DNA of 34,681 bases from an uncultured Ruminococcus sp. (GTDB lineage: Bacteria > Bacillota > Clostridia > Oscillospirales > Acutalibacteraceae). The stretch is taken from assembly GCA_902796915.1 (NCBI GenBank), contig CADBQS010000006.1, positions 1 to 34,681 on the forward strand, given 5' to 3'. How positions within the stretch are numbered: the first letter of the stretch is position 1; every line of letters starts with the position of its first letter. Below, piece after piece: positions 27,702 to 30,090 of this stretch. The notes under the pieces were generated by a model. It did no database searches. It was not told where the DNA came from and was given only the letters and a program-made list of their open reading frames with translations. Both the position numbers and the translations under genes were made by a program.

Positions 27702-27740
27702 AAAAGCATATTCATTTCTAAATGAATATGCTTTTCTACT
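27702..27740. terminator. Bidirectional terminator between tex and the peptide gene
   Basis: A 15-bp perfect stem (27702-27716 with 27721-27735) and a 4-nt loop start with AAAA and end with TTTT, so it can stop both tex (+) and the convergent peptide gene (-). Confidence 0.85.
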
Positions 27741-27747
27741 TTTTATA

Positions 27748-28175
27748 TTATTTTTCAAGATATTTTACAACTTTTTTACCTATCTTTGCTCCAATCCATG
27801 CACCGCTACCTATACCCAGCGAAGCACCACCTAAATTACCAACTAATGCACCATAACCAACACCAACCACAGCACCATTTTCTCCATCCAACGCACCGCC
27901 GATGGCCCCACCGGCAAGCCCAGCACCAACAGCACATGCTGGCATTGTAAAGCTAGAAATTAAGCTTCCGACTGATAATGCACCAACTGTACCACCAATA
28001 AGTTTACCCACCGTCACATTATTTAATCCACCAACTGCTTCTTTCGTTTCCTCTTCTGTAACATCTACTCCTTTGCTAGCAAACAATTTTTTGCTTCCTC
28101 TACTGTTTCTTTGTTTACTAATTCTCCAACAAATTCCTGATCCTGCATTAAATCCTCAAATTTTTTGTCTAACAT
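27748..28175 (-). CDS. Nif11-leader-like glycine-zipper peptide precursor, frame broken
   Basis: Read across one frame break, this gives about 142 aa. From ATG 28175 (SD AGGAAAGGG) the frame reads MLDKKFEDLMQDQEF and goes on to VNKETVEEAK; it then stops at 28065. The -1 frame goes on from the A6 run (28092-28087) as LFASKGVDVTEEETKEAVGG and a glycine-rich core of about 92 aa full of GxxxG spacing (GAGLAGGAIGGALDGENG, IGKKVVKYLEK). The joined N-terminal part has the layout of Nif11-type leaders: an acidic helix, then T-E-E, ending in Gly-Gly. A bacteriocin-like or RiPP precursor is the best guess; a plain glycine-zipper membrane protein is the alternative. The run A-AAA-AAT could allow -1 slippage, or one A is missing. 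No transporter or modification enzyme is nearby. Confidence 0.65.
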
Positions 28176-28244: not shown

Positions 28245-28270
28245 ATTATACCCCCACAAAATTTTGTCAA
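28245..28270 (-). promoter_or_regulatory. Promoter-like site with G5 tract and short spacer
   Basis: On the minus strand, perfect TTGACA (28270-28265) and perfect TATAAT (28250-28245) are only 14 bp apart; the spacer is nine bases followed by five G. It lies about 70 bp before the peptide start. Three more G would give a 17-bp spacer. Compare 29508-29536, which has the same plan with eight G. Confidence 0.65.
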
Positions 28271-29507: not shown

Positions 29508-29536
29508 TTGACATTTTTTCGAGGGGGGGGTATAAT
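29508..29536 (+). promoter_or_regulatory. Consensus promoter with G8 tract in the spacer
   Basis: Perfect TTGACA (29508-29513) and perfect TATAAT (29531-29536) are exactly 17 bp apart. The last eight spacer bases (29523-29530) are all G, in DNA that is otherwise strongly A/T. A change in G number would change spacer length, as in the phase-variable porA promoter of Neisseria. Confidence 0.8.
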
Positions 29537-29604: not shown

Positions 29605-30090
29605 ATGATCGCAGCATTTACAAAAGGAGCAGACAAAATTTTGAAAGAAGCAAAAATTTACAAACACTCAAAGATGGGTTCAAACAATTTTCATTACTCT
29701 ACACAAAAAGAATTTGACGATGAAAAACCAATAGAATGGAAGTCAAATGGTAACCACAGTGTGGGATACTATAAAGCGCTCGAAAACTTGTACTGTTATC
29801 GTACTAGCTATAGGGGAAATGTTTTTATTGAGCATTATGTTGACCCCGATGATGCACATTCTAAAAAACTTACCGGCGAACATCTAAATGCTTACAAAGA
29901 GTACTCAGAAAAGAATGATAGACCAGAGGAAAGGTATTTGTTACTTTCTAAGGCCGAACTAGCTAAGGTTGAAGACGCTACATCTGCCGATGTATTCAAA
30001 GACAATTTAAAAATTGCGAAAATTGTTAATAAGCCTGCGTTTATGGGTGAATATTATCACGTTGATTACTATCCAAAATCTGAAAAATAA
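29605..30090 (+). CDS. Unknown 161-aa soluble protein under a G-tract promoter
   Basis: No family is recognised. The protein is hydrophilic and Lys/Glu/Tyr-rich, with no signal peptide or membrane helix. Notable stretches are an N-terminal FTKGADKILKEAKIYKH, an aromatic region SVGYYKALENLYCYRTSYRG, the acidic EHYVDPDDAHSKKLTGEH, and a C-terminal YYHVDYYPKSEK. The single Cys is in LYCYR. The start ATG has a very strong SD (AGGAGG, seven bases), so once transcribed it should be well translated. It is monocistronic, with the G8 promoter about 70 bp upstream and a hairpin terminator after it. It might act in immunity to the peptide nearby or as an independent effector; nothing in the sequence decides. 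Confidence 0.7.
   Translation: MIAAFTKGADKILKEAKIYKHSKMGSNNFHYSTQKEFDDEKPIEWKSNGNHSVGYYKALENLYCYRTSYRGNVFIEHYVDPDDAHSKKLTGEHLNAYKEYSEKNDRPEERYLLLSKAELAKVEDATSADVFKDNLKIAKIVNKPAFMGEYYHVDYYPKSEK

Follow-up and report, generated by a model that had tools for sequence, protein, structure and literature searches.

Two reading frames on the minus strand of an uncultured Ruminococcus sp. genome meet at a run of six adenines, raising the question of whether they are halves of one bacteriocin-like peptide gene and, if so, whether the break between them reflects error, decay, or a switch. The window, meaning the whole 34,681-nucleotide stretch of DNA that was analysed, comes from a 1.40 Mb draft genome of 145 contigs that is 94.5% complete. 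An initial annotation had described a Shine-Dalgarno (SD) sequence, an ATG at 28175, a stop ending at 28065, the A6 run, and a -1 frame extending to 27748, and this description matches the sequence letter for letter. Its promoter with a short 14-bp spacer is likewise present, with TTGACA and TATAAT at 28270-28245. Direct reading places the SD-like AAGGAAAGGG ahead of the ATG at 28175, and the split unit is flanked by the 14-bp-spacer promoter on its 5' side and a terminator-like hairpin on its 3' side. The features of the locus are as follows:

28245..28270, minus strand: promoter with TTGACA, a 14-bp spacer ending in G5 (28255-28251), and TATAAT
28065..28175, minus strand: 5' frame of 36 codons from ATG to TAG, encoding the first half of the Nif11-like leader (sequence, translation, profile)
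28087..28092, minus strand: A6 run at which the reading frame breaks, the -1 register being needed downstream (sequence, junction scan)
27748..28092, minus strand: 3' frame with the leader end and a Gly-rich core, 114 codons plus stop (translation, profile, GxxxG count)
28032-28027, minus strand: Gly-Gly closing the leader, within the 3' frame (translation)
27702..27735, minus strand: terminator-like hairpin of 15 pairs, 3' of the gene

Profile comparisons identify the 5' and 3' pieces as one gene whose frame is broken at the A6 run. Elsewhere in the same genome, a search recovered intact paralogues with open frames on contigs C102, C83, and C76, the kind of homologue that the initial annotation had proposed to look for. 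A profile built from these three paralogues, with the target left out, was searched against the 812 stop-to-stop frames of the window; it matches the 5' piece at 44.6 bits (E 6.6e-13), the 3' piece at 18.3 bits (E 8.1e-5), and the read-through at 65.2 bits (E 3.2e-19). A second profile (A3) of 12 other leaders, nine from other genomes and three from this one, gives 24.4 bits for the 5' piece, 16.2 bits for the 3' piece, and 46.6 bits for the read-through. When a -1 junction is scanned across 32 codon positions, the best score falls on the A6 run, at codons 28-29. The 3' frame has the character of coding sequence, with GC contents of 0.60/0.49/0.22 by codon position and a 114-codon stop-free run that has p = 0.00035 under a first-order Markov model of the same stretch.

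The alternative that the 3' frame is a separate ORF starting at TTG 28086, preceded by an unrelated or regulatory 36-codon peptide, was rejected and retains a negligible probability. TTG is a possible start codon, and mechanical ORF calling does list an ORF from this position, but the upstream ORF matches the paralogue leader at the E-value given above and the relatives carry leader and core in one frame. Once identical ORFs reached through several loci had been removed, the listed relatives carry the upstream leader except where an ORF is cut at a contig end or is itself broken, and none lends support to a start at TTG 28086 without it, an arrangement that the initial annotation had named as evidence against a joined gene.

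The affiliation of the leader is clear at the level of the clan and not at that of the curated family. The joined 142-residue target does not match TIGR03798 at E up to 10, the comparison suggested by the initial annotation, and the paralogues on C102, C83, and C76 do not match it at E up to 1; membership at the curated level is therefore rejected. Within a wider set of 16 leaders, 11 match TIGR03798 at E up to 0.01, a threshold that is not the curated cut-off. An hhalign comparison of the family profile A1, which includes the target, with A3, which holds none of the four glycine-zipper paralogues among its 12 leaders, gives a probability of 99.1 and an E-value of 7.8e-19. The comparison of A1 with a further profile, A2, was set aside because A2 contains the four A1 sequences, and A3 was used instead. 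The C76 leader exceeds the cut-off of TIGR01847, the bacteriocin signal, and a Pfam scan of the leaders returned weak, scattered matches only. The leaders end in a Gly-Gly type motif, with Gly-Ala in two paralogues. By profile comparison, then, the target leader belongs to the Nif11-like leader clan. The earlier description of a Nif11-like leader with a Gly-Gly end holds for the double glycine and for the clan, and fails for a formal TIGR03798 match; the intact paralogues and the 12 other leaders establish the upstream leader as part of the gene, so treating a missing HMM match as refutation was too strict.

The target leader is also unusually short. Counted by eye in a 16-leader alignment, it reaches the Gly-Gly after 50 residues; the other 15 leaders take 68 or more, a difference of at least 18 residues from every relative compared. 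In the same alignment the first helical part (TEEE) is followed directly by KEAVGG. The C83 paralogue has the octamer ACAGAAGA at each end of the segment that the target lacks, and the target has it once. This pattern suggests a repeat-mediated deletion that removed the C-terminal half of the leader, which would be a second lesion in a decaying gene.

The product of the intact members is most likely an unmodified, exported, membrane-active peptide, judging from core composition and gene content. The target core is 26% Gly and has 14 GxxxG motifs against 5.8 in shuffles, a count reached by 0 of 2000 shuffles. No shuffle reaches the 17 GxxxG motifs of the C83 core, and the excess is weaker in the C102 and C76 cores (0.055 and 0.073). 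The glycine-zipper core proposed in the initial annotation thus stands as a GxxxG excess; the target core has no match over the cut-off to a glycine-zipper family. Contig C86 carries NHLP export genes, with matches to TIGR03796 at 910.8 bits (cut-off 853.3) and TIGR03797 at 734 bits (cut-off 709.4); TIGR03794 scores 86.9 bits there, below its cut-off of 156.2. No LANC-like or YcaO genes were found in this 94.5% complete draft. The family probably comprises bacteriocins or similar membrane-active peptides, and antibacterial action would follow from that resemblance.

The promoter of the target is one of a set. The genome was searched for TTGACA, 4 to 13 nucleotides, GGGG, and TATAAT, with the reversed pattern as a control; the pattern occurs at five sites and the reversed control at none. 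A sixth site has an interrupted run:

Target: 14-bp spacer, G5
Contig C76: 15-bp spacer, G6
Contig C102: 16-bp spacer, G8
Window, 29508..29536, plus strand: 17-bp spacer, G8, upstream of a 161-residue ORF (29605-30090)
Contig C64 (L017 1501-1529): 17-bp spacer, G6, before a 218-residue protein (1594-2250)
Contig C69: 18-bp spacer, interrupted run GGGGAGGGG; the gene runs off the contig

Three of the five uninterrupted G-run promoters drive the bacteriocin-like peptide family, and the intact C83 paralogue has a plain 17-bp spacer with no G run. A spacer of 17 bp is the promoter optimum and is the commonest length in this genome too: among 54 further consensus promoters with 13-18 bp spacers, exactly 17 bp is found in 40. 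At the G content of those promoters, a G5 run at the -10 element is expected 0.0009 times in 60.

The plus-strand promoter at 29508 lies 1.2 kb from the target, and the 161-residue protein behind it is a different product from the peptide family; this protein has no Pfam match at E up to 0.1 and an NCBIfam match below cut-off only. The 218-residue protein on C64 has no credible family match. An ORF on contig C7 (L291 245-1093, minus strand; G000) has, close to its 5' end, a G12 run that may be a contingency tract within coding sequence. The end of C69 (L334) carries a leader start behind the interrupted G-run promoter and the start of C90 (L325) carries a leader remainder; these contig ends are possibly one gene broken by assembly.

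Promoters of this type extend beyond this genome. Among 398 genomes of the same bacterial family, 31 have a site with G5 or longer, and none but this genome has more than two. Named species genomes hold at least 122 sites in at least 118 loci, and the figures that follow are among the matches listed. The commonest G run is 9 nucleotides (50 of 122 sites), the spacer is 15-18 bp at 116 of 122, and an SD sequence, an ATG, and an ORF of at least 40 codons lie behind 90 of 122. Of the sites with such an ORF, 50 of the 64 that have G8 or longer encode a protein with a hydrophobic N-terminal stretch, compared with 9 of 20 that have G6. Among promoters that share the prefix TTGACAAAGTGCC and have similar flanks, one chicken-gut MAG has a G9 and a G6 run and another species a G11 run; homologous G-run promoters of differing lengths are what slipped-strand variation would leave. 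In gut Clostridia, Bacilli, and Saccharibacteria, genes for secreted or membrane proteins are likewise repeatedly preceded by promoters with a G run in the spacer (L117, L133, L071, L089, L098, and others within L065-L182). At L038 and L039, two congeneric species have the same gene behind the same G9 promoter, indicating that the run is kept between species.

The site itself and the rest of the family bear on the cause of the break. In the target, GCA is followed by the remaining A run and TTG; the corresponding paralogue sequences are GCAAAGAAATTA, GCAAAACAATTG, and GCAAAAAAGCTA, each of which stays in frame, and the A run is interrupted in two of them (AAAGAAA and AAAACAA) and closed by G in the third (AAAAAAG). 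A search of the 398 family genomes with A1 matched 17 genomes in 51 rows, two of which are the split target. No internal stop occurs in 46 of the 49 non-target rows, and the other three are two weak core-only matches and one leader gene (G238:C13:30087). This Nif11-type leader gene (L303, minus strand, about 40-560) has a one-base break of opposite sign near a contig end. Frame breaks do occur among these relatives, yet the family search found no conserved shift site. A search of 148 relatives gave any match in four genomes. When the same gene was sought in named species genomes, none of 104 pattern stretches was confirmed as a second copy of the locus, and viral contigs gave 0 stretches.

The initial annotation had left three explanations for the break: an A lost in assembly or sequencing, an on/off switch by slippage, and programmed -1 frameshifting. 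The last, or transcriptional slippage at the same place with low-level synthesis of the full peptide, is highly improbable. As had been noted, the heptamer A_AAA_AAT fits the zero frame, and a GAGG stretch lies just upstream of it, but all three paralogues read through the site without a shift, the break in G238:C13 has the opposite sign, and the heptamer is background, occurring in frame 53 times in the 30,214 codons of 68 intact ORFs. RNA folds downstream of the A6 run are ordinary (z -0.72, 0.07, and 0.95), and an A6 run lies below the poly(A) length of n > 7 given for transcriptional realignment in the part of the source consulted (PMC3711429). Programmed frameshifting was rejected on the paralogues, the heptamer background, and the folding. 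A consensus that lost a base from the A run of a gene in frame in the cell is quite unlikely, although the 3' frame retains its full coding character, the draft genome is split into 145 contigs, and the other one-base-broken leader gene adjoins a contig end. The A6 site lies 6.6 kb from the contig end. In the stretches of this genome that were examined, 68 intact ORFs of 200 codons or more contain 162 A6 and 73 A7 runs, indicating that the assembly handles such runs well, although the sample was picked for intact ORFs and is biased. Full coding character over 114 codons implies that the gene was broken very recently, is still switching, or is intact and misassembled.

A dedicated translational switch, in which the A run would be a selected contingency locus and a second layer over the promoter G run, is very doubtful. 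It has precedents in a frame-switching poly(A) tract and in GG-leader peptides called likely phase variable, as excerpts of the two reports describe them (PMC2831843; PMC11798529), and G runs elsewhere in the genome, including the G12 run inside the C7 ORF, are compatible with it. Against it, a longer A run is not kept in the paralogues, A6 runs are short and common in this genome, and the leader is truncated as well. The broader proposal that two stochastic switches, promoter G runs and a coding A run, act on the family and would make a clonal population a mixture of cells producing different subsets of antagonistic peptides is unlikely.

A real indel, silent and perhaps revertible, fits best. 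The target is fairly probably a presently null copy of its family, produced by an ordinary, recent, and in principle revertible homopolymer slip, with the family's switch more likely to reside in the promoter. An excerpt of a survey of frame-broken genes types isolated cases as indel or error (PMC3711429). The target belongs to a set of paralogous, probably secreted glycine-zipper peptides with Nif11-like leaders, and under the indel reading a one-base contraction of its A run, which codes for the leader Lys-Lys, would have put the core out of frame. The C-terminal half of the leader would also have been lost in the window copy. Slipped-strand changes in the G run between -35 and -10 would shift the spacer around the 17-bp optimum, and at 14 bp the window copy would be transcribed weakly or not at all. 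The NHLP transporter, whose genes lie elsewhere in the genome, would export intact members and cleave them at the double Gly. As a counterpoint to a promoter switch, two other G-run promoters are already at 17 bp and the C83 promoter is without a G run.

By its leader and core, the gene belongs to a peptide family of a known kind. As far as the excerpted source describes them, the N11P (TIGR03798) and NHLP (TIGR03794/03796/03797) families share with it a helical Gly-Gly leader, a large paralogous family, transporter genes in the same genome, and a Gly-rich core (Haft et al., 2010; PMC2887384). Unlike N11P, the joined leader and the C102, C83, and C76 paralogues miss TIGR03798, no LANC-like or YcaO enzyme was found, the core is long and glycine-zipper-like, and the export genes are unlinked.

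The promoter recalls Neisseria porA and fetA, for which an excerpted account describes transcriptional phase variation through -10/-35 spacing and lists the porA tract as a T run, C, and G6 (PMC5320596); the likeness lies in a G run within a sigma-70-type promoter spacer and in several lengths among relatives. The phylum and product differ, and the lengths here are compared between loci, with one consensus each. Gonococcal nap bacteriocin-like peptides, GG-leader peptides with homopolymer tracts that are called likely phase variable in the portion of the report consulted (PMC11798529), resemble the target in that leader or frame depends on a homopolymer, although theirs is a G or T run and the one here an A run. 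In Listeria, according to a partial text, one-base changes in a poly(A) tract flip the frame at about 5e-7 by reporters (PMC2831843); A-run length near the 5' end of a gene sets the frame in both cases, whereas the gene is unrelated and length variation was measured, by reporters, in Listeria only. A literature search found nothing that pairs phase variation with Nif11 and nothing on homopolymer promoters in gut genomes, which is not proof of absence in print.

Taken alone, the frame break would mark an ordinary silent copy, and the family and its promoter set are of more interest. More widely, the locus points to an uncultured lineage with a whole family of bacteriocin-like peptides, probably exported, and with a shared promoter type that has a G run in its spacer; in other gut bacteria this promoter type stands upstream of many proteins that are secreted or membrane-bound. 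Should read data show the runs to vary, making the peptides would amount to bet hedging, a trait overlooked by work on consensus genomes.
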